Shown here: piece after piece, positions 34,105 through 46,012 of the stretch
Layout: each line of letters starts with the position of its first letter
Position numbering within the stretch: position 1 is the stretch's first letter
Assembly: GCF_022827545.1 (NCBI RefSeq)
Contig: NZ_CP094669.1
Span: 4,581,001 to 4,645,000, forward strand
Origin: Hymenobacter tibetensis
GTDB taxonomy: Bacteria; Bacteroidota; Bacteroidia; Cytophagales; Hymenobacteraceae
DNA length: 64,000 nucleotides
Reading direction: 5' to 3'
Made by a program: the position numbers and the translations under genes
Notes under the pieces: model-generated
Told to the model about the DNA's origin: nothing
The model's database searches: none
Seen by the model: only the letters and a program-made list of their open reading frames with translations

Positions 34105-34122
34105 GCACCGGCCACACAAAGA

Positions 34123-34151
34123 TGCGGCGGCGTTTGCGCCGCCGTACTTTT
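34123..34151 (+). terminator. Rho-independent terminator of the PorE-like gene
   Basis: GC-rich hairpin cggcggcg/cgccgccg (34125-34132 and 34137-34144) with wobble extensions, followed by CTTTTT. Confidence 0.8.
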
Positions 34152-34277
34152 TCCTCGTGGTGTCAAAGACATGATTCGTCGGGTAAAGGCCGTATTTCCC
34201 CGATACATCGGCGGCTCACCTATACCGGGGCTGTATCTTGCTACAGTTTGCTACCGACCATCGGGCTACTTTTCCTT

Positions 34278-37200
34278 GTGCTGCTTCGCTGTTATCGTCT
34301 ACTCTTTACGCTGTTTGTTTGCTGGGGCAGTTGCGGCCTTGGTGCACAGGCCCAACAGGCAAGCCCCCAGTATTTCCTAAAGCAGTTCGGCCCAGCCGAT
34401 GGCTTGCCACAGCCTTTCATCTACGCACTAGCCCAAGACCAAGCAGGTTACCTCTGGATTGGCACCGCTGAAGGGTTGGTCCGCTATGATGGCACTGAGT
34501 TCGTCACGTTCAGCACCAAAGATGGACTGGCCGAGGATTTTGTGACGGCGCTATACGTGCAGCCACAAACCGGCCATGTCTGGGTGAGCCACTACCAAGG
34601 CGGAGTATCATGCTGGGATGGACAACGGGTGCGGCGAGTGCCAGCAAAAGCAGTGCAGCCTAAAGGCTTTCACCCACGGCCCGGTATTGCCGCTCCTGAT
34701 ACGGTTTACAAGAATGCAACTCAGTTTGGCCTCGCCACGCAACAGGTAGCCACGCTGCACCAAGTACTTCCTGCTGGCACCGTACCCCAAGTGGTACTCA
34801 CTGACCGAGAGCATAACCTGTGGGTCGGAACGGCTGGACAGGGGTTATGGCGCTGGTCGGACCGCCATATTAGTTTCTATCCGTTGCCCAAAAACTCGGT
34901 CAGTGCGCTATTCAACCAAGGCAAAGCAGGCGGCATTTCAACTACGGGAGAGCTTGTTTCACTGAATTCGATTTCTGGCCAACCGTCACCATTCATTGTT
35001 TATCCCGGTAAGCTGTTGCCATATCCACCTAGCGCGGTCCTTTACACAGCAGACAAACCGTCGAACCTTATTTCCAGCAATGCCTACTCAAAGCTAGTAC
35101 CTGGTTCTATTTTGGCTGGTACCGCTGGGCATGGGCTCTGGCAAGGCGCTGTAATCCCGAGGCGTTCCATTCTACGCTTGGTACGGCGTCTGCCCACTAC
35201 ACTTTCGGTTACAGCCCTTGCCCAACAACGCAACGGCGACGTATGGGTGGGCACTGCGCTAGATGGCTTGTATCAGCTCCCTGCCGACTCCACCAAAGCA
35301 GTACAACACTTCACTACTGCCAATGGCCTACTGCATAATACTATTTATGCCCTCACCGCCGATTCCACCGGAGGGGTCTGGATTGGTACCCACGACACTG
35401 GACTAGCCATGTGGAGACAGGGAAGCTTTCATTACTTCCGCTTTCCTAGTGGCAGCCTCGACGTATCGGCCCTTCTAACCGATGGTGCCGGCCGGGTTTG
35501 GATTGGAACCGAGGGCAACGGCATTTTCTGCTATGAAAAGGGCCTGCTTCGCAACTATGGTCCTAGCAACGGCCTTCGCTCTCCCTACTGTTACGCGTTG
35601 CTACCAATACGTTGGCGTAACAATTCGGGCAATATTTCCCAGCACGAGCAAGTACTGGTAGTGCATCGTAATAGCCTTAGCTTCTCTGACACTACTCTTC
35701 GCCACTTTATTCCGGCGGCTCTACCCGGCAATCCGCTGGTCCGCGACTTACTACCGCAAGCCACTGTAGATAAAAGCGCGTTTTGTGTGTGGTTACGCAC
35801 TCGTAGTGGTTTACTCTGCCTACGGACCACCACCGCCACCCTCTTGCCTGGCACCCGCACGCCTACCCCTACCCTATTGAGCAGCGAAGTTGATGGCGCC
35901 ACTCGTTTGCCTACTCAGCTAAACGAACTGTCTGCCACGCAGCACCGGGTCAGCTTCATGTTCCGAGGCATCAGTTTGCTACCCAACCAAACAGATTTGC
36001 AGTATCAGTACCGCCTTGCGGGATATCAGGAACAGTGGAGTCATCCTACTGTGGTGGGCGAAGCACAGTTTCCGCGTTTGGATGCCGGCCATTACTCCTT
36101 TGAAGTACGCTGCCGGCGAGGGGCACAGGGACGCTGGTCGGCATCAACGGTAACCGCGTTTTCCATTGCCACCCCTTTCTGGCAAACGTGGTGGTTTGCG
36201 CTAACAAGCCTGGTGCTGTTGGGGGCAGGAGTTTTTGCACTGATACGCGTGAGAGAAGCTACACTCCGGCGGCAGAAGGTGCAGTTGGAAACCACTGTCC
36301 GTGCCAGGACCCACGAGCTACGTGAGCAGAAAGCCCACATCGAGGACATGAACGCCGAGTTAGTTGTAGCCCGCGACGTGGCCGAGGCTTCACGCAAGGC
36401 CAAAGCCCAGTTTCTGGCCAACATGAGCCACGAAATTCGAACCCCTATGAACGCGGTTATTGGCCTGACCCACCTGCTGCGTCAAACGCCCGTTAACTCC
36501 GAGCAGAACGAATACCTGGAAGCGGTACAGTCGTCGTCGCAAAACCTGCTGGTCATCATCAACGATATTCTCGATAGTTCCAAAATAGAAGCCGGCAAGC
36601 TCAGCTTAGAGCACACCGCATTTCGCTTGCCGGAGTTGCTGCGGCGCGTCGCGAGTATGTTCCGTTTCGCCACCGAGGCCAAGCATCTGTACTTCAACCT
36701 TGAGATAGATTCCACCGTGCCCACGGCCGTACTCGGCGACTCGGTACGCCTAAACCAAGTTCTCGTGAACTTGGTGGGCAACGCGGTGAAATTCACAACG
36801 ACTGGGGGCGTAACAGTACGGGTGACGTCTTCTTCCACTGAACCTAGCGGCCTCCAGTTGGTGCGCTTCGTGGTGCGAGACACAGGTATTGGTATCCCGG
36901 CCAATAAGCTGGATGCCATTTTCGAAGACTTTTCGCAGGCTAATACCAGCACTACCCGTCAGTTTGGGGGTACCGGCCTAGGCCTTAGCATCGCCCGCAA
37001 CCTAGTGGAGTTGCATGGCGGGCGCTTGTGGGTGGAGAGTGAGGACGGACAAGGCTCCGCATTTTCCTTCGAAATCCCGTATACCGTCGCCGACCCCACC
37101 GAGGTGGCCCCAGAAGCCACCTTAGCCGTCGGGCGCTTCGAGCCAGAACTACGTGTGTTGGTAGCCGAAGACAACGACTTAAATCAGCTAGTTGCCCGTA

Positions 37201-37907
37201 AAACTCTGGAAGCTTGGAATGTACAGGTGACCATTGCCGCCAACGGCCGACTGGCAGTAGAGGCCGCTGAGCAGCACACATTTGATGCTGTGCTGATGGA
37301 CGTGCAGATGCCGGAGATGGATGGCTACGAAGCGGCCCGTCAGCTGCGGGCACGCTTCCCTGATTCCGCCGTTCTACCCATCATCGGCCTCACTGCCTCT
37401 GCCCTCCCCGAAGACCGGGCCCTAGCCCTTGAAGCAGGCATGAACGATACCCTGGCAAAACCCTTTGACCCGGCCGTATTATACGCCCGCCTTGCTCACT
37501 ACACCGGGCGCGGACACCTCGCTGCGCAAACCCCATCGTTCCCAGGAGCCGAACCCACAGAACTAACTGCTTCCCTTCCCACCCTCGACTGGACGCTTTT
37601 GGAAGAGCTAGCAGGTGGCAACGAAGCCTTTGTTCAACAGATTATCAACACTTTTATCAACCAAGCGCCGCCGCTACAAAAGCAATTAGAGACGGAACTG
37701 GCGTCGGTCGATCCGGCGGCCATGGCACGCACCGCCCATAAGCTCAAAGGGCAGGTAGCTTATTTTGGCGTTGAAGAATTGTATTCCACACTAGAAACAC
37801 TAGAGCAGCAAGCCAAACAAAACGCAACGCCGGATACACTTTCAGCATTGGTTGAGCAAAGTGGCGAATACCTGCGCAGGCTGTATCCACAGCTGCGAGA
37901 AAGATAA
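34278..37907 (+). CDS. Hybrid two-component sensor kinase (Reg_prop, Y_Y_Y, HisKA, HATPase, REC, Hpt)
   Basis: A 1209-aa hybrid sensor of the periplasmic-propeller type common in Bacteroidota. Order: signal peptide, about 10 Reg_prop blades in the periplasm (e.g. DQAGYLWIGTAEGLVRYDG, DGAGRVWIGTEGNGIF), a Y_Y_Y domain (about 580-650), one membrane helix (about 655-675), HisKA with the phospho-His in MSHEIRTPMN (His718), an HATPase domain (N-, G1- and G2-like motifs, about 785-920), a receiver with Asp1008 in VLMDVQMPEMDG, and an Hpt domain with His1154 in ARTAHKLKGQ. All phosphorelay residues are present. Start is uncertain: no ATG opens the signal peptide, and I take GTG at 34278-34280 (MLLRCYRLLFTLFVC), with TTG 34248 as an alternative; the upstream ATG at 34122 lies inside the previous terminator. 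The LytTR regulator follows after 72 bp. Confidence 0.88.
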   Translation: MLLRCYRLLFTLFVCWGSCGLGAQAQQASPQYFLKQFGPADGLPQPFIYALAQDQAGYLWIGTAEGLVRYDGTEFVTFSTKDGLAEDFVTALYVQPQTGHVWVSHYQGGVSCWDGQRVRRVPAKAVQPKGFHPRPGIAAPDTVYKNATQFGLATQQVATLHQVLPAGTVPQVVLTDREHNLWVGTAGQGLWRWSDRHISFYPLPKNSVSALFNQGKAGGISTTGELVSLNSISGQPSPFIVYPGKLLPYPPSAVLYTADKPSNLISSNAYSKLVPGSILAGTAGHGLWQGAVIPRRSILRLVRRLPTTLSVTALAQQRNGDVWVGTALDGLYQLPADSTKAVQHFTTANGLLHNTIYALTADSTGGVWIGTHDTGLAMWRQGSFHYFRFPSGSLDVSALLTDGAGRVWIGTEGNGIFCYEKGLLRNYGPSNGLRSPYCYALLPIRWRNNSGNISQHEQVLVVHRNSLSFSDTTLRHFIPAALPGNPLVRDLLPQATVDKSAFCVWLRTRSGLLCLRTTTATLLPGTRTPTPTLLSSEVDGATRLPTQLNELSATQHRVSFMFRGISLLPNQTDLQYQYRLAGYQEQWSHPTVVGEAQFPRLDAGHYSFEVRCRRGAQGRWSASTVTAFSIATPFWQTWWFALTSLVLLGAGVFALIRVREATLRRQKVQLETTVRARTHELREQKAHIEDMNAELVVARDVAEASRKAKAQFLANMSHEIRTPMNAVIGLTHLLRQTPVNSEQNEYLEAVQSSSQNLLVIINDILDSSKIEAGKLSLEHTAFRLPELLRRVASMFRFATEAKHLYFNLEIDSTVPTAVLGDSVRLNQVLVNLVGNAVKFTTTGGVTVRVTSSSTEPSGLQLVRFVVRDTGIGIPANKLDAIFEDFSQANTSTTRQFGGTGLGLSIARNLVELHGGRLWVESEDGQGSAFSFEIPYTVADPTEVAPEATLAVGRFEPELRVLVAEDNDLNQLVARKTLEAWNVQVTIAANGRLAVEAAEQHTFDAVLMDVQMPEMDGYEAARQLRARFPDSAVLPIIGLTASALPEDRALALEAGMNDTLAKPFDPAVLYARLAHYTGRGHLAAQTPSFPGAEPTELTASLPTLDWTLLEELAGGNEAFVQQIINTFINQAPPLQKQLETELASVDPAAMARTAHKLKGQVAYFGVEELYSTLETLEQQAKQNATPDTLSALVEQSGEYLRRLYPQLRER

Positions 37908-37966
37908 ACTACCTAGCTTATGTCTTATTAAAATCTGTAACGCTGCGGTTTTTTCCAGGGATAGTA

Positions 37967-37974
37967 TACCTTTG
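37967..37974 (+). promoter_or_regulatory. -7 element abutting the LytTR gene start
   Basis: TAccTTTG followed by aaaat and the ATG. A perfect match to the -7 consensus placed only 5 nt before the start codon; no clear -33 TTTG. Transcription from it would be nearly leaderless. Confidence 0.35.
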
Positions 37975-37979
37975 AAAAT

Positions 37980-38699
37980 ATGCCTGCTTCTCTATCCCCT
38001 CTGCGTTGTCTGGTAGTAGACGATGATCCACTTTCTGTACAAGTAGTTGAAAACTGCATTGCCAGCACCCCGTTCCTAAAGGCGGTGGGCAGTTGCGAGA
38101 GTGCCGTTGCTGCTGCCGAAGTATTACGCAACCAAGAGGTGGACCTGCTATTTCTTGACGTCGAAATGCCACTTATGTCGGGTATCGACTTGCTCAGCAC
38201 ACTCCACAATCCGCCGTTGGTGGTGCTTATCACTAGCAGCAAGCAGTATGCGGTGGAGGCGTTCGAGTACGACGTAGTTGATTATCTGGTGAAACCCGTG
38301 AGTTATGCTCGCTTTCTGAAAGCCGCTCAACGCGCTTTGGAGCTTGCCCACCCCCAGGCAGTTACGGAGCCTACTCCTCCCGCTGATGCGGACTTCACCT
38401 TCATGAAGGTAGATACCAAGCTGGTGAAAGTGCTTTTCGATGAGGTACGCTACGTAGAAGCCCTCGGCGACTACGTCCACATCGTCACGGGCCAGAGCAA
38501 GCTCATTGTGTATAGCACCATGAAAGCGGTAGAGGAAAAGTTTCCTGACACCTTATTCGTGCGCGTGCACCGATCCTTTATTGTCAATCTGAAACGGGTG
38601 CAAGCCATCGAAGACAACACGATTGTCATCGATAACAAGCACATTCCTATTGGGCAAACGTACACCCGGGAAGTGTTCCAACGGCTTAATAAGTTCTAA
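37980..38699 (+). CDS. LytTR-family response regulator
   Basis: A 239-aa response regulator with a receiver domain (about 9-125; acidic pocket LVVDDDP and phospho-Asp D60 in FLDVEMP) and a C-terminal LytTR DNA-binding domain (about 138-235; VDTKLVKVLFDEVRYVEALGDYVHI, VRVHRSFIVNLKRV). Placed 72 bp after the hybrid kinase, it is its likely partner: the kinase's final Hpt domain can pass the phosphate to D60. DNA targets unknown; the PKD-domain gene 40 bp downstream is a possible target or a co-transcribed gene. ATG at 37980. Confidence 0.92.
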   Translation: MPASLSPLRCLVVDDDPLSVQVVENCIASTPFLKAVGSCESAVAAAEVLRNQEVDLLFLDVEMPLMSGIDLLSTLHNPPLVVLITSSKQYAVEAFEYDVVDYLVKPVSYARFLKAAQRALELAHPQAVTEPTPPADADFTFMKVDTKLVKVLFDEVRYVEALGDYVHIVTGQSKLIVYSTMKAVEEKFPDTLFVRVHRSFIVNLKRVQAIEDNTIVIDNKHIPIGQTYTREVFQRLNKF

Positions 38700-39430: not shown

Positions 39431-40963
39431 CTAAACCAATTGCCGGTCTTCTTCTGCCACCTGCACTGCCGTTACTTTCAGGATATCTATCGTGAGGCCC
39501 CATAGATTTTCGTAGGGTACTATCTCAATTTCCGAGTACGCTTCTCCGGGAGGTGGAGCTGCTTGCATTCTTTTCAAGAGAGGCGCTGCCTGCTGCTGAC
39601 TTAAGGTTGGGTCGAAGTCAGACTTCACTGTAATAGCCAGGAGGCGAAAAAACAATTGGCTGCGTAATGTTCCTACGTCCCGCAGGTGGCGCTGCTGGTA
39701 CTTGCGCAAGCTTTCCAGCCGCAGCAGCAAACCGTCTAAGTCGCGCTGACGCAAATAGTGCAGAAACTGCAGAATTAATACGGCTACGTTGTAGCCCTGC
39801 TTATCACGGCTGTGCGTCGGGACAGTTTGAATGAAGGTGTTGAAGCTACGAATTCGCAAGGGGGAAGACTCTGGCCGAATGAACTGCAGATACACTTCAT
39901 ACAAATCCCAGCGTTCTTGAGCGGCATAGCGTTGCTTGTTGAAATACACGCTTTTACGCGCTGTTTGCAGTAGCTCTTGCGCCTGCCCATATTGCCCTGC
40001 GTGTAGGGCTAGCAGCATGTATATTTCTAAGAAGTACAGCCAGTTGTTGGATGCATAGTGAAAGTCCTTGGCGTATTCTTCAGCTAGTTTAAGCCCCTGT
40101 TCAGCCTGCCTGCTGCGCAAATGCGCATACACACTCATGTAGTTGTTGTAGCGCTTATCGAAACGGGTGCGGTTAATTTTACCCTGCTCCCACTTCTTGG
40201 CGGTTTCCGTTGTGAGCCTTATAATCTCTTGATAGTTGCCTACCAATTCTTCCCTAGTAAGTTGCGTTCGGTAGAGATAGAAGAAGGTGGTAAACGTTCT
40301 GGCATCTTTATGCAGCGTTTCCAGTTGCTTGAGATAGGCCTCAATCTTTCCAAGCATACCCTGCCGGGCCCGCACGGTGTAAGCCATCATTGCTTTCACC
40401 TCCCAGAATAGTTTTGCGGCTTCCTCTTCTAACCCCCAAAGCCGTTGGTTTTCTGCTAGTTTCTTGTTGTTGTTGCGGAACTTGCCAGGCTGTTGCATAT
40501 CAGCATAGATACTACGCAGCAACTGCCCGCACATTACGCTGTAATGGGTGAATTCCATTGTTTCAGCCAAGCGCAACGCTTTACGAGCCAAGCGTTCTGC
40601 ATTGAAATACTCGCCTTCCCCAAACAGAGTACTTACCTGATAATACAAGCTCAGGCATTGCTGTTCGTAGCGCCGCGATACTACGTGCCGTGGATCTGAT
40701 TCGTCGAGAAAAAAAAGATGGTTCAACATTTTCTGCTGAACCCGGGATTTTAGCTTCCGAAAAGCAGTTTTGCTGACAGCGTCCGTTTTGCCATACAATG
40801 ATTTGACTACTTGCTGCTGCGACTTTTCTTGATCCTCAAGCAGCAAATGGATCAACGCCATTTCCTTATTGGCCCCTTGCTTGACTGTAAAATCCAGTAA
40901 TGGCAACACTTTTTGCCGGCGGTCTGTCACAATTCTTGCCAGATTATTCAATCCATCCATCAT
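39431..40963 (-). CDS. Helical hypothetical protein, 510 aa
   Basis: I do not recognise this protein. It lacks a signal peptide and membrane segments. It is mainly alpha-helical with TPR-like spacing (e.g. YYQVSTLFGEGEYFNAERLARKALRLAETM, about 108-137; GLKLAEEYAKDF; AGQYGQAQELLQTARKS), and has many Arg/Lys/Gln residues. The first ~90 residues (ARIVTDRRQKVLPLLDFT...AVSKTAFRKLKSRVQQKMLNHLFFLDE) might form a small N-terminal domain with basic helices. A cytoplasmic scaffold or regulator is conceivable. It is transcribed away from the DHGNGGWSG repeat gene, with a shared 364-bp promoter region, so co-regulation is possible. Confidence 0.65.
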   Translation of the reverse strand: MMDGLNNLARIVTDRRQKVLPLLDFTVKQGANKEMALIHLLLEDQEKSQQQVVKSLYGKTDAVSKTAFRKLKSRVQQKMLNHLFFLDESDPRHVVSRRYEQQCLSLYYQVSTLFGEGEYFNAERLARKALRLAETMEFTHYSVMCGQLLRSIYADMQQPGKFRNNNKKLAENQRLWGLEEEAAKLFWEVKAMMAYTVRARQGMLGKIEAYLKQLETLHKDARTFTTFFYLYRTQLTREELVGNYQEIIRLTTETAKKWEQGKINRTRFDKRYNNYMSVYAHLRSRQAEQGLKLAEEYAKDFHYASNNWLYFLEIYMLLALHAGQYGQAQELLQTARKSVYFNKQRYAAQERWDLYEVYLQFIRPESSPLRIRSFNTFIQTVPTHSRDKQGYNVAVLILQFLHYLRQRDLDGLLLRLESLRKYQQRHLRDVGTLRSQLFFRLLAITVKSDFDPTLSQQQAAPLLKRMQAAPPPGEAYSEIEIVPYENLWGLTIDILKVTAVQVAEEDRQLV

Positions 40964-41327
40964 GCATTTTCCCTTTACAGTCTCACAAGGGCTATTTTAT
41001 AAACAGACCCTACCCAAAATTACTGTCACAAATCGACCTTTTTTTTCCTTTACAAATATCATCTCCCTATTTGATCTTTGTAGAGGAAAAGTGTGTGTTT
41101 TTGAAAGATGAGATGTCACATTTTAAGGTATTATCTACAATACAAGCGGTAATACCAAATGTGACTTAGCCTTGAGTAGCTGAAGGATGATTTGTTTAAT
41201 AGAAAAAGTTTAAAATTATATAACTAACATACAAATCACTTTTAGACTATACGTTTCCTTTACGAGCGTGCGGATGTATTTCACCTTTGTGTCAATCAAT
41301 GACTTGGCACAACATAAACTTACTACC
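40964..41327. other. 364-bp AT-rich divergent intergenic region
   Basis: No gene seen. It must hold the divergent promoters of the 510-aa protein and the repeat protein. On the minus strand TAatTTTG occurs at 41015-41022; on the plus strand TAcgTTTC at 41250-41257 misses the last base. A/T runs are frequent. Confidence 0.5.
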
Positions 41328-42125
41328 ATGCTCAATATAATCACTTTCGCTCTGTTGCAATTCGCCACTTCTTCCATCAATGCTACCTCTCAGGTTAGCT
41401 CGGTTGAAGCAAATCCAGCAACAGTATACACTGTAGTCGCAGACCACGGTAACGGCGGCTGGTCAGGTACTGCAGCTGTAGATCACGGCAGTGGTGGTTG
41501 GTCCGGGGTTGCAGCCATAGATCATGGCAATGGTGGCTGGTCGGGTTTCGTGTCGGCAGACCACGGTAACGGCGGCTGGTCGGGCTTCGCAGCCGTAGAT
41601 CATGGCAACGGCGGTTGGTCCGGGGTAGTCGCCGCAGCTGACCACGGTAATGGTGGCTGGTCCGGTATTACAGCAGCTGACCACGGCAATGGTGGCTGGT
41701 CGGGTGTTGTAGCTTCAGCCGATCATGGAAACGGTGGTTGGTCGGGTGTTGCAGCCGCCGACCACGGTAATGGTGGCTGGTCCGGAGTTGCCTCAGCCGA
41801 TCACGGCAATGGTGGTTGGTCCGGAATAATAGCTGTAGCCGCAGACCACGGCAATGGTGGTTGGTCAGGTACTGCAGCTGTGGATCACGGTAACGGCGGC
41901 TGGTCGGGCTTCGCAGCCGCCGATCATGGCAACGGCGGTTGGTCCGGGGTAGTCGCCGCAGCTGACCACGGTAATGGTGGCTGGTCCGGTATTACAGCAG
42001 CTGACCACGGCAATGGTGGCTGGTCGGGTGTTGTAGCTTCAGCCGATCATGGAAACGGTGGTTGGTCGGGTGTTGCAGCCGCCGACCACGGTAATGGTGG
42101 CTGGTCCGGAGTGACGGCCGTTTAA
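41328..42125 (+). CDS. Tandem-repeat protein with 17 DHGNGGWSG units
   Basis: A 265-aa protein I cannot assign to a known family. After ~38 residues (a hydrophobic start, MLNIITFALLQFATSSINA, without a basic n-region, then a polar stretch) the rest is 17 copies of the nonapeptide DHGNGGWSG; one copy reads DHGSGGWSG. They are separated by 4-6 small or hydrophobic residues such as TAAV, VAAA, VVASA, ITAA. Codons for the unit vary between copies (aac/aat, ggt/ggc, cac/cat), so the peptide itself appears constrained. Units 4-8 and 12-16 are a recent block duplication. The pattern suits a stacked beta structure (surface fibre, adhesin or metal binder) or a multi-core peptide precursor; none is proven. 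The start is ATG 41328; GTG 41268 and ATG 41274 are possible. Confidence 0.75.
   Translation: MLNIITFALLQFATSSINATSQVSSVEANPATVYTVVADHGNGGWSGTAAVDHGSGGWSGVAAIDHGNGGWSGFVSADHGNGGWSGFAAVDHGNGGWSGVVAAADHGNGGWSGITAADHGNGGWSGVVASADHGNGGWSGVAAADHGNGGWSGVASADHGNGGWSGIIAVAADHGNGGWSGTAAVDHGNGGWSGFAAADHGNGGWSGVVAAADHGNGGWSGITAADHGNGGWSGVVASADHGNGGWSGVAAADHGNGGWSGVTAV
41430..42113 (+). repeat. 17 tandem 39-45-bp coding repeats
   Basis: Period 13-15 codons, each unit beginning near gaccacggt/gatcatggc and ending ggctggtcgggt. All units stay in frame. Confidence 0.9.
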
Positions 42126-42259: not shown

Positions 42260-43981
42260 ATGACGCGACACCTTCAGAAAATCCTTTTTTTTCTTCTGCT
42301 CAGCGCTTGCGGATTAACGGCCTGTGCTCCCTCTTCCAGACCAGAGGCAGTGCGTATTCGTTGGACCTCTGACCCGCAAACATTGGACCCTCTAACGGCA
42401 GCTTCTCCACAGGCGATAGAGGTGCTCAATCTGATGCACTGCAGCTTACTTATCAGCGACGCCACCACGCTAAAGTTTGCGCCTTGGCTGGCCAAGCAGA
42501 TGCCCACCATTAGCCGAAGAGGTACTTCGACGCTATTCAGCTATCAACTCCGGCCAGAAGCCACTTGGGATAACGGCCAGCCTGTATTGGCTCGTGATGT
42601 AGCGTTTACGCTAAAAGTGCTGAACTGTCCTGGCCTGCCTACCGAGTACGCGCGAACTCAGTACGGATTCGTTACGGATGTGGAACTAGATGACCGTGAT
42701 CCGCGCCACTTTACTTTGGTGTGTGAGACTTCCTCGCCCGACATTCTATTCTCTACCGGGGATTACGCTATCCTACCAGAATATGTACTGGACCCGAAAG
42801 GGGAATTACGGGCGGTACCCTATTCCTTGCTGCGTACCGATACAGTTGCTGCAGTGCGCCGCTATCCTGCTATACGGGAGTTTGCGCGGCGCTACAAGCA
42901 AGCACGGCTAGACAAGCATCCCGAGCATCTGCCTGGCTGTGGGCCGTATACGCTAACTAAATGGGCCGATAAACGCTACCTACGTCTTCAGCGCAAAGAA
43001 AAGTGGTGGGCTAGCGCCCTCCCCACTCCCCCAACATGGCTGCAAGCCCATGCGCGACGCCTGGAATACCAAATCATTCCGGACAACACAACGGCCCAAC
43101 TGGCTCTTCGCCGCGGCGACTTGGATTTGTATCCCATGCCGCCCGCTCGGGACTTCGACCGGTTACGAAAATCAGCTGATACAGCCCAGCTAACCTTCCA
43201 CACCTCCGGGTCCTATGAAATAACGATGGTAGGTTTCAACAACCAACATCCGTTGCTTCAGGATGCGCTTACTCGCCAAGCGCTAAGCTTGCTCTTTAAT
43301 GTACCAGGATTGATGCAGGCCACCCAGCCAGGATTGGCGTACCGGAGCGTAGGCCTGATTAACCCCAGTGACAAGGAGGTTTATAATGACAGCATCCCGC
43401 TCCTGCCATTTAGCACAAGCAAAGCAGTGGACTTGCTTCGCCAAGCGGGTTGGCAACGCCAGGCTGGTGGAAAGTGGACGCGTAAGAGCGAAACACTGTC
43501 GTTGAGAATCAGCTACCGTGCTGGCGAGTCAGCTCATGAAACAATAGCGTTGCAGTTTCAGGGAACAGCCTCTAGCCTAGGTATCCCTGTCTTGTTGCGG
43601 CCCACGGAAGTAGGCTTGTTTAAGCAACAGTTAGTGTCTGGTGAGACTGAACTTCACGTGAGCACCATCCATGGCAGTCCTGGCTACAATTTCATACCGT
43701 ATTTGCACTCGCGTAGTATTGGAATAAGCAACCTCACCCGCTATAATTCGTCAGTAGCCGACCAGTTGATGGAAGCCATTGTCAACGAGCCCACCGGACC
43801 ATTGCGTACGAAGTTGATTCGAAAATTTCAGCAGCAGTTTCGTACCGACTCACCCTTAGTCGTGCTATTTTTCCTTCGCAACCGGTTTATTGCCAGCAAA
43901 CAATTGCAAGGAGTACGCGCTATACCTATTAAGCCCGGCTACGACGTCTTAAGTATAGCACCAGTTTTTTCTCGACAATAG
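42260..43981 (+). CDS. Peptide-type ABC transporter substrate-binding lipoprotein
   Basis: A 573-aa solute-binding protein of the family 5 class (OppA/DppA). The signal peptide ends at the lipobox LTAC (Cys22), so it is anchored in a membrane. Typical motifs: RIRWTSDPQTLDPLTAA (about 31-47), the FSYQLRPEATWDNGQPVLARDVAFTLKVL segment (about 93-122) and the C-terminal SIAPV end. The binding partner could be a di/oligopeptide or nickel; not resolvable. It is the first gene of a three-gene operon with two permeases (4-bp gap). No ATPase gene is in the neighbourhood. Confidence 0.88.
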   Translation: MTRHLQKILFFLLLSACGLTACAPSSRPEAVRIRWTSDPQTLDPLTAASPQAIEVLNLMHCSLLISDATTLKFAPWLAKQMPTISRRGTSTLFSYQLRPEATWDNGQPVLARDVAFTLKVLNCPGLPTEYARTQYGFVTDVELDDRDPRHFTLVCETSSPDILFSTGDYAILPEYVLDPKGELRAVPYSLLRTDTVAAVRRYPAIREFARRYKQARLDKHPEHLPGCGPYTLTKWADKRYLRLQRKEKWWASALPTPPTWLQAHARRLEYQIIPDNTTAQLALRRGDLDLYPMPPARDFDRLRKSADTAQLTFHTSGSYEITMVGFNNQHPLLQDALTRQALSLLFNVPGLMQATQPGLAYRSVGLINPSDKEVYNDSIPLLPFSTSKAVDLLRQAGWQRQAGGKWTRKSETLSLRISYRAGESAHETIALQFQGTASSLGIPVLLRPTEVGLFKQQLVSGETELHVSTIHGSPGYNFIPYLHSRSIGISNLTRYNSSVADQLMEAIVNEPTGPLRTKLIRKFQQQFRTDSPLVVLFFLRNRFIASKQLQGVRAIPIKPGYDVLSIAPVFSRQ

Positions 43982-43985
43982 CAGT

Positions 43986-45041
43986 ATGGTACGTGGGGTG
44001 ATGCAACTCTTGCAGTGGATTTTCACCGTTTGGGTACTCATCACGATACTCTTCCTCTTGACGAAGGCATTGCCGAATGAGCAGCAACTGCTGCTCCGTT
44101 TTGCGGACACAGCGGGGAGCAGGCAGGGCTTTTCAACTCAACAAGTTGCAGCAGCACAGCAAGCGGCTCGTCAGCGCTTGGGACTCACCGAGCCAGCATT
44201 TTATATCTCACCAGCACCACATTCTGGCGCATCAGAGTGGCGCTGGCACTGGAATGGTTCACGCAACCAATATCACCGCTGGCTTCGTGCTTTGCTACAC
44301 GGCAACCTAGGCCAATCGTATTATACTCAGGAATCCGTAACAGCTTTGCTTGTAAATGCATTGGGTGTAACTGCACCTCTTGCTAGCTTGGCTGCCCTAC
44401 TGGTGGTTGGTCTTTCGATACCAGTGGGTTTGTGGCTGGCTGCTCGCTCCGGCTCTCATTGGATGCTCACCGTGCTGCTTGCCCTCGATGCTTTGCCACT
44501 TTTTGTAATAGCATTGCTACTCATGATGCTGCTAGCTAGCCCTGATTATCTTTCCTTGTTCCCAGCATTCGGGCTCAGTGCGGAAGAAGAGGATGCCGGC
44601 ATCAGCTCTATTCTCAAGCAACCAGCATTTTTAATACTGCCACTGGCTAGCTTAGTTATTTCCACCATCACGGAACCCGCCGTACAACTTGCTCACGCAC
44701 TCCGCCACGAGGCTCAACTTGACTACATTGTGACGGCTCGGGCCAAAGGGTTAGCAAAAATGCAAGTACTACAGCGGCACGCACTACGTAATGCGCTGCT
44801 GCCCACCCTTACCCTCTTCACTGAGTTATTGCCAAACCTGCTAGCGGGAACCGTTGTAGTGGAGCTAGTTTTTGCACTCCCTGGCTTAGGCCGGTTGGTA
44901 GCTGATGCTGCGGCCGCTCGCGACTATCCAGTGCTACTCGGAGGCGTGTTGGTCGTTCTTGTTGTACGCCAGCTTCTGTTGGTTTTCGCCGATTGGCTGT
45001 ACCAACTAGCGGATCCGCGGATCCGTGCTTTAAACCAATGA
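43986..45041 (+). CDS. ABC transporter permease, DppB/OppB-type
   Basis: A 351-aa inner-membrane permease with six or so hydrophobic helices (about 8-28, 125-150, 155-180, 210-235, 275-300, 315-335) and the EAA loop EAQLDYIVTARAKGLAKMQV (about 240-260), the contact for the ATPase. The extra extracytoplasmic stretch between the first two helices (about 30-115) is longer than in E. coli DppB. Starts 4 nt after the substrate-binding gene and its stop codon overlaps the next start in ATGA. Confidence 0.9.
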   Translation: MVRGVMQLLQWIFTVWVLITILFLLTKALPNEQQLLLRFADTAGSRQGFSTQQVAAAQQAARQRLGLTEPAFYISPAPHSGASEWRWHWNGSRNQYHRWLRALLHGNLGQSYYTQESVTALLVNALGVTAPLASLAALLVVGLSIPVGLWLAARSGSHWMLTVLLALDALPLFVIALLLMMLLASPDYLSLFPAFGLSAEEEDAGISSILKQPAFLILPLASLVISTITEPAVQLAHALRHEAQLDYIVTARAKGLAKMQVLQRHALRNALLPTLTLFTELLPNLLAGTVVVELVFALPGLGRLVADAAAARDYPVLLGGVLVVLVVRQLLLVFADWLYQLADPRIRALNQ

Positions 45042-46012
45042 GGAAATGGCTCCATCAGAATCCTCAACGAACTTGGACGCCTCTGCTGGCCTTGCTCTGG
45101 CTTTCCTTGCTGGTATTCGCTGCCGTGGTAGCAGGCTTGCTTCCACAGCAACTCTTGTCTCCTGATTTGCTTAACAGCAATGCACCGCCTTCTACTCCTA
45201 GCCATTGGCTAGGCACTGATCCGCAAGGGCAAGATGTCATGGCCGCGCTGTTGTATGGTGCTCGTACTGCCCTGCTAGTCAGTATACCATCTGTTGGCAT
45301 TGCCGCTGCTCTAGGCACTGGCTTTGGCTTAGCCGCTGGTTATTTTGGTGATACACGTTTGCGTTATCCGTTGGCTTATTGTGCGACGGTGGGATGTGCT
45401 TTCCTCTGTTTTGCCCTGTTCAAAATCTCATTCAGTTGGCTACTGTTGTTGCTGTTATCAGCGCTAAGCGTAGGCAAAGTACTAACACGATTCCAGTTTT
45501 GGTCGCATAGGATAGCACTTCCCCTCGACCAACTTATACAGGTATGCACCAGCCTGCTTTCGTCTGTTCCGAGGTTGTTACTTATCATCACAATAGCAGC
45601 AGCTATTGAACCTACGCTTCTTGGCTTGGTATTGCTGTTGGGATTCACTTCCTGGACCCAAACAGCCCGGCTGGTACGCGCAGAAGCAAGACGTGTGCGT
45701 CAGTTGCCTTATCTGGAAGCTGCGCATGCGGCCGGCTTACCACCTTTGCGGATCGTATGGCATCACATGTTGCCCAACGTTATGCGGCCTGTTATTACCA
45801 CAATACCTTTAAGTATTGCCGCATTTATTACACTAGAAACTACCCTGTCTTTTCTAGGAATAGGCTTGCCTCCTGAAGTTGTAAGCTGGGGAAAATTACT
45901 TGCACTCAGCCGTTTGGCTCCATCTTCGTGGTGGTTGTTGCTGTTCCCGGCGCTTTGTCTGTTGGCTACCACACTGGCTCTACGTTCCGTACTGGCTTTC
46001 AAAAAAAGGTAG
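45038..46012 (+). CDS. ABC transporter permease, DppC/OppC-type
   Basis: A 324-aa permease partner, with an N-terminal helix (about 18-38), a periplasmic loop ending in LGTDPQGQDVMAALLYGARTALLVS (about 60-85) that is characteristic of OppC-type proteins, further helices, and the EAA loop EARRVRQLPYLEAAHAAGLPPLRI (about 215-238). ATG overlaps the stop of the upstream permease (ATGA), so translation is coupled. Both permeases need ABC ATPases encoded elsewhere. Confidence 0.9.
   Translation: MRKWLHQNPQRTWTPLLALLWLSLLVFAAVVAGLLPQQLLSPDLLNSNAPPSTPSHWLGTDPQGQDVMAALLYGARTALLVSIPSVGIAAALGTGFGLAAGYFGDTRLRYPLAYCATVGCAFLCFALFKISFSWLLLLLLSALSVGKVLTRFQFWSHRIALPLDQLIQVCTSLLSSVPRLLLIITIAAAIEPTLLGLVLLLGFTSWTQTARLVRAEARRVRQLPYLEAAHAAGLPPLRIVWHHMLPNVMRPVITTIPLSIAAFITLETTLSFLGIGLPPEVVSWGKLLALSRLAPSSWWLLLFPALCLLATTLALRSVLAFKKR

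Follow-up and report, generated by a model that had tools for sequence, protein, structure and literature searches.

The described systems closest to the locus analysed here are the peptide-sensing RRNPPA systems, whose receptors are Rap, Rgg, NprR, PlcR, PrgX and AimR. In the Rgg-SHP (short hydrophobic peptide) and ComR-ComS systems, a short hydrophobic propeptide is encoded beside its receptor and the peptide is imported by an oligopeptide permease, as is proposed below for the present case. The yeast alpha-factor precursor likewise carries many peptide copies between short spacers, but it is eukaryotic, with KEX2 cleavage sites and a surface receptor. The locus itself lies in a window (the whole stretch of DNA analysed) of 64,000 nucleotides from Hymenobacter tibetensis (contig NZ_CP094669.1, positions 4,581,001 to 4,645,000), and its central element is a gene for a 265-residue protein made largely of 17 nearly invariant DHGNGGWSG units. 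We read this protein, with a probability of about 0.62, as the multi-copy precursor of a signalling peptide in an RRNPPA-like quorum-sensing module of Gram-negative Bacteroidota; no description of such a module was found in the open-access literature searched.

The accessible parts of the papers cited here present RRNPPA systems as neighbouring propeptide and tetratricopeptide-repeat (TPR) receptor genes, carried by Bacillota and by their mobile elements (PMC10075063, PMC9765709, PMC12700828), and report them only for Gram-positive bacteria, their phages and plasmids (PMC10075063, PMC11343458, PMC9765709, PMC12700828). According to the same portions, the six families are joined by structural comparison only (PMC12700828), and some propeptides repeat an identical pheromone, in up to 8 copies (PMC11343458). 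The H. tibetensis module resembles Rap-Phr and NprR-NprX in its modelled receptor fold, its adjacent receptor and propeptide genes, and its repeated identical cores. It differs in being Gram-negative, in having no detectable sequence similarity, in its divergent gene order, in an N-terminus that is not led by Lys or Arg, and in copy number, which reaches 20 in the family as against the 8 given in the text available of PMC11343458. The search criteria outlined in PMC10075063 specify receptors of 250-500 residues and propeptides of 10-100 residues, whereas the two proteins here have 510 and 265 residues, respectively; many of the relatives' propeptides measure 46-100 residues. SHP export is described as non-Sec (PMC10075063), a possible further likeness to the present propeptides, whereas core duplication, common in Hymenobacter, is absent from Rgg and ComR propeptides as far as the accessible part of PMC9765709 goes. 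Many peptide copies with short spacers in one precursor are also described for the fungal KEX2-processed repeat proteins (KEPs; PMC9769878, in part), which are eukaryotic as well. Our claim, by analogy, is that the module would operate in the RRNPPA manner, not that its membership is proven, because layout, fold and copy multiplication are shared but there are differences in phylum, sequence, size of the receptor and number of copies.

The repeat protein and its family in Hymenobacter

41328..42125, plus strand: putative propeptide gene, ATG start, TAA stop, 265 residues, 17 core copies
41328..41375, plus strand: hydrophobic N-terminal segment of 16 residues, conserved in the comparison of genus orthologues
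41442..42110, plus strand: 17-unit array, DHGNGGWSG in 16 units and DHGSGGWSG in one, spacers of 4-6 residues

The protein begins with a hydrophobic stretch, followed by a linker of ~22 residues and by the 17 units, which are separated by 4-6 small or hydrophobic residues. A re-count of the open reading frame agreed with a first-pass annotation, made from the sequence alone, in finding 16 peptide-identical units and a single variant; the spacer lengths and the synonymous codon variation that it had reported were also borne out, the 17 cores having 12 distinct DNA versions. That annotation had proposed selection on the peptide unit, rather than copying alone, and a codon-level comparison between the units. 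Over 136 pairs, the proportion of synonymous differences (pS) was 0.73, compared to 0.0056 for nonsynonymous differences (pN), a contrast far beyond chance, showing that selection holds the peptide. Recent copying contributes as well: a 191-bp exact direct repeat inside the array (41598-41788 and 41922-42112) is a recent block duplication. The contrast between pS and pN, together with this repeat, indicates an unchanging peptide in an array that turns over and whose synonymous sites drift. Tandem Repeats Finder described the array by a period of 39, 16.7 copies and a score of 434. An earlier GTG at 41268 keeps the frame open, but homologues start at the residue matching the ATG at 41328, and not at the upstream GTG.

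Scans of the propeptide with Pfam and NCBIfam gave no match, PADLOC matched neither the propeptide nor the receptor-like protein described below, and a scan of viral contigs with the propeptide was also negative. A full-length search of 5.8 billion proteins returned 0 at E <= 0.001, probably because the repeats flood the word filter, and a genome scan with the repeat protein found one relative, H. telluris. An Rfam prion pseudoknot family was aligned to the repeat units (41486-42023) at sub-gathering scores (E 0.18-0.71), and was judged a chance result of Gly and Trp codon composition.

The family was surveyed in 120 genomes of the genus, 59 of which gave matches at E <= 0.1 in a whole-protein search. 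The flanking genes, coding for the receptor-like protein, a binding protein and a first permease, were kept in 22/22 regions compared, and the stretch 5' of the binding-protein gene was therefore fetched from each genome possessing that gene (112/120). From these intervals, 107 propeptide genes were read, belonging to 106 genomes, six of them outside the script pattern and added by eye. The genes of G007 and G025 were found on another contig, those of G046, G100 and G098 a little way off, beside a receptor-like gene, and those of G017, G029 and G056 are cut by a contig end, with units still visible. The family is thus present in all 112 genus genomes that keep the locus, either in the syntenic position or next to a receptor-like gene that has moved. 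Eight genomes (G001, G003, G035, G059, G080, G088, G095 and G115) lack matches to all three of receptor, binding protein and peptide, and represent either loss of the locus or a separate lineage.

Lengths in the 107 members range from 46 to 297 residues. One Trp core is present in 24 members, two in 11, three in 15 and 4-20 in 57, with Trp occurring in every core by construction of the count. Single-core members have 46-60 residues, with the core lying at the C-terminal end or close to it (for example, ...QQGGGGWGGD). Gly at position -4 from the Trp was found in 107/107 consensus cores and the remaining positions vary, with 60 different 8-residue cores across the family. Within one protein the core is nearly invariant, and between species it switches. 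The family values of pN and pS refer to the 57 members that have four or more cores: 48 of these had a pN of exactly 0, and pS had a median of 0.449; two showed no differences of either kind. Among the 24 closest species pairs (receptor identity of at least 0.90), 21 share an identical core, 10 differ in copy number, and the linkers have a mean identity of 66%.

The N-terminal segment has Gln at residue 11 in 106/107 members, and Lys or Arg occurs within the first 18 residues in only 5/107, making the uncharged N-terminus, pointed out earlier for this one protein, a trait of the family. At least eight propeptides (L022, L023, L031, L032, L041, L080, L077 and L078, from genomes G118, G101, G030, G089, G110, G002, G056 and G017) have a terminal Cys or Cys-Ala behind their final unit. 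When 35 short members were made into a profile, it matched 103 database proteins at E <= 0.01, nearly all from Hymenobacter and without Pfam domains; those with names are called hypothetical, uncharacterized or secreted protein. Alignment A1 holds 46 of 120 sequences listed (322 found), A2 holds 35 of the 107 propeptides, and A3 combines the window sequence with 47 of 50 N-termini.

The divergent receptor-like gene and its surroundings

39431..40963, minus strand: divergent 510-residue, all-helical TPR-like protein with a helix-turn-helix-like N-terminus, putative peptide receptor or regulator (AlphaFold2, structural comparison)
40964..41327, no strand: 364-nt intergenic region between the receptor-like and propeptide genes

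The AlphaFold2 model of the ~510-residue protein had a pLDDT (predicted local distance difference test) of 86, and in a second-look structural comparison its first 8 rows were Rap and NprR. The modelled protein has the C-terminal TPR or TPR-like superhelix by which RRNPPA receptors are recognized, while its profile gave 0 matches at E <= 10 against the sequences of the PDB. At the N-terminus, the known receptors have a helix-turn-helix (Rgg, PlcR, PrgX, NprR and AimR) or a three-helix bundle (Rap and NprR). In the C-terminal hairpins of the H. tibetensis protein, polar residues of the first helices (N307, E313, R351, N392, Q399 and R434) are at least 90% conserved. A homologue was found in 196/204 genomes of the family (E <= 1e-10), and the 8 that lack it coincide with the 8 in the genus that gave no match for the binding protein (E <= 1e-80). 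Core resemblance tracks receptor identity in 50 greedy pairs, drawn after 3/107 receptors under 400 residues were dropped; common descent explains this pattern too, and it is therefore not counted as proof of coevolution.

The receptor-like gene lies directly beside the propeptide gene in the window, for the 107 genus genes, and at 31/31 primary loci of other genera. Downstream of the propeptide, importer-type genes follow.

42260..43981, plus strand: SBP_bac_5 substrate-binding protein, oligopeptide/nickel type
43986..45041, plus strand: OppB/NikB-type permease
45041..46012, plus strand: OppC/NikC-type permease

These three proteins match nickel and oligopeptide models alike, all below the curated cut-offs, and the importer-type genes are frequent companions of the module. 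Five displaced cases separate the partners: in G098, ~6 kb separate the binding protein from the receptor-like gene; the binding protein adjoins another receptor copy in G046 and G100, lies behind the receptor in the second copy of G007, and is not listed within 4 kb beside the peptide in G207. The peptide adjoins a receptor-like gene in all five, which makes the receptor its closer partner. Matches for OppD/F-type ATPases were found elsewhere in the genome, as two oligo_HPY domains in one 712-residue frame (G000:C1:5725678-5726949; L228, L229); this frame, distant from the permease genes, may encode an OppD-OppF-type fusion ATPase. A hybrid histidine kinase with a Reg_prop propeller and a LytTR response regulator are encoded near the locus (window 34122-38699), with homologues in 17/22 and 12/22 of the regions compared, respectively.

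Some receptor-like paralogues, L142 (the second copy of G198), L137 (G046) and L138 (G100), adjoin a binding-protein gene and have no recognizable peptide gene; such copies could listen to another system's peptide. In genus g5, 34/50 genomes have 2-4 receptor-like genes, mostly as one-strand neighbours (for example, G163:C4:738061-743831), and in the g5 genomes fetched with two of them (G159, G178, G179 and G195) the peptide gene is upstream of the first.

The intergenic region measures 340-399 nt in 105/105 loci (2/107 could not be delimited); in the window, it contains two similar elements.

41236..41294, plus strand: conserved, promoter-like upstream element nearest the propeptide, TCACTTTTA ... 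TTTCCTTT ... CACCTTTGTGTCA
41024..41083, plus strand: further element resembling the first and oriented alike, TGTCACAAA ... TTTTCCTTTAC ... CTTTGTAG

Counted on either strand, the ATGTCACA box is present in 72/105 regions compared to 4 in shuffles, and the TGTCACAA box in 71/105 compared to 2. Within 130 nt upstream of the peptide start, CCTTT is present in 107/107 members and TTTGTG in 77/107. TTCCTTT-type boxes average 1.52 per region versus 0.11 in shuffles, and cluster at a distance of ~75 nt from the peptide start, with a further cluster at ~285 nt in roughly half the loci, in the same direction. We take this layout to resemble a -33/-7 Bacteroidota promoter with upstream binding sites. 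The TCACNTTT..TCCTTT element occurs once in the genome, at the propeptide locus (the reversed control occurs five times), and so shows no wider regulon. A hairpin-like TTTGTGTCA..CACAAA arm varies between species, inverted repeats were found in three intergenic regions, and scans for sigma-70-type promoters and terminators gave nothing useful.

Distribution beyond the genus

From 84 genomes of five other genera, 31 primary loci were fetched, and all 31 have a small divergent gene 270-380 bp from the receptor start. Its product has a hydrophobic N-terminus, a mostly Ser/Thr-rich linker and, at its C-terminal end or close to it, a Trp core rich in Gly. By a strict peptide criterion, 30/42 receptor loci (primary and paralogous) passed, compared to 0/840 shuffles and 1/42 reverse-complement controls. 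Of the 12 that failed, six have a peptide by eye, and the other six, all second receptor copies, have none. Three tandem peptide genes in G128 share one terminal decapeptide.

At the level of the order, a receptor homologue is present in 108/390 sampled genomes, family members included. Among 20 loci fetched from the places listed for other families, a likely peptide was recognized in four (G207, G255, G294 and G212) and a doubtful one in G271; 3/20 passed the strict criterion, one of them, a second G271 locus, being unconvincing, as did 1/400 shuffles and 1/20 reverse-complement controls. Across the class, 27/395 genomes have a receptor homologue, and no such peptide was recognized in the 5 readable loci out of 26; two of the 5 are the same place. 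The receptor-like family thus extends beyond the module.

A candidate peptide signal and its alternatives

We infer the following course for the candidate signal. The protein would be the precursor of a short Gly-Trp peptide, here around DHGNGGWSG, and its 17 tandem copies would yield many signals per translation product. The precursor would be exported and then cut within the small-residue spacers, and the freed peptides would re-enter through an oligopeptide importer, probably the downstream binding protein and permeases. The TPR-like protein would be the cytoplasmic receptor, and probably a transcription regulator; peptides bound to its concave face may alter expression from the intergenic promoters. 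A single receptor to be matched would keep all cores alike, while spacers and copy number drift.

Four other explanations were weighed. The peptide might be secreted and re-imported for cargo or chemistry, as a metal-binding or bacteriocin-like product with the binding protein and permeases for its uptake and the TPR-like protein as its regulator, and carry no population signal. The match of the importer-type proteins to nickel as well as oligopeptide models and the His and Asp of the H. tibetensis core agree with this, but most cores lack the His (present at -5 in 30/107), which also removes a residue of the metal-binding ladder suggested in the first-pass annotation; the peptide keeps to the receptor-like gene in the five displaced cases, and the modelled fold points to peptide sensing. 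This explanation appears unlikely. About equally improbable is an unexported precursor that directly binds or inhibits the TPR-like protein within the cell, each of its tandem units taking up one receptor. The lack of a conventional Sec n-region and the strict adjacency of peptide and receptor genes would suit such a ligand, whereas the conserved hydrophobic N-terminal segment, and copy numbers of 1 to 20 that differ even between close relatives, speak against it.

The arrangement of leader, spacers and invariant core is also that of a multi-core ribosomally synthesized and post-translationally modified peptide (RiPP) precursor with enzymes encoded elsewhere, and a modified precursor with a ~38-residue leader had been put forward earlier. 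The multi-copy precursor layout stands, while modification gives way to a peptide-signal precursor as the better reading: as had been noticed before, no modifying enzyme is encoded nearby (no RiPP-type domain was found by Pfam among the 17 proteins around the locus, the rest of the genome not being searched), the closest neighbours are common to the 22 regions compared, and one-core forms adjoin the same receptor-like gene. We regard the RiPP explanation as very unlikely. Least probable is a structural beta-solenoid or fibre protein, the reading favoured at first, for which the recurrence of the units every ~13 residues, each with a single Trp, would speak. Single-core members of 46-60 residues at the same interval (24/107) mean that a function shared by the family cannot need stacked units. 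For perfect repeats, AlphaFold2 is prone to predict solenoids that are spurious.

The peptide-signal reading, extended to the lineage, holds that an intracellular pheromone system of Rap/NprR type operates in Hymenobacteraceae and in some other families of the order, with species-specific pherotypes and arrays of up to 20 copies, for which we see a somewhat better than even chance. If true, a Gram-negative receptor-propeptide module would extend peptide quorum sensing of RRNPPA logic across an outer membrane, and the 60 core variants would be a set of candidate peptide codes. The copy numbers of 1 to 20 offer a natural series for asking why signals multiply in one precursor, and small Hymenobacter genes now annotated as hypothetical protein would gain a function, should this reading be correct.
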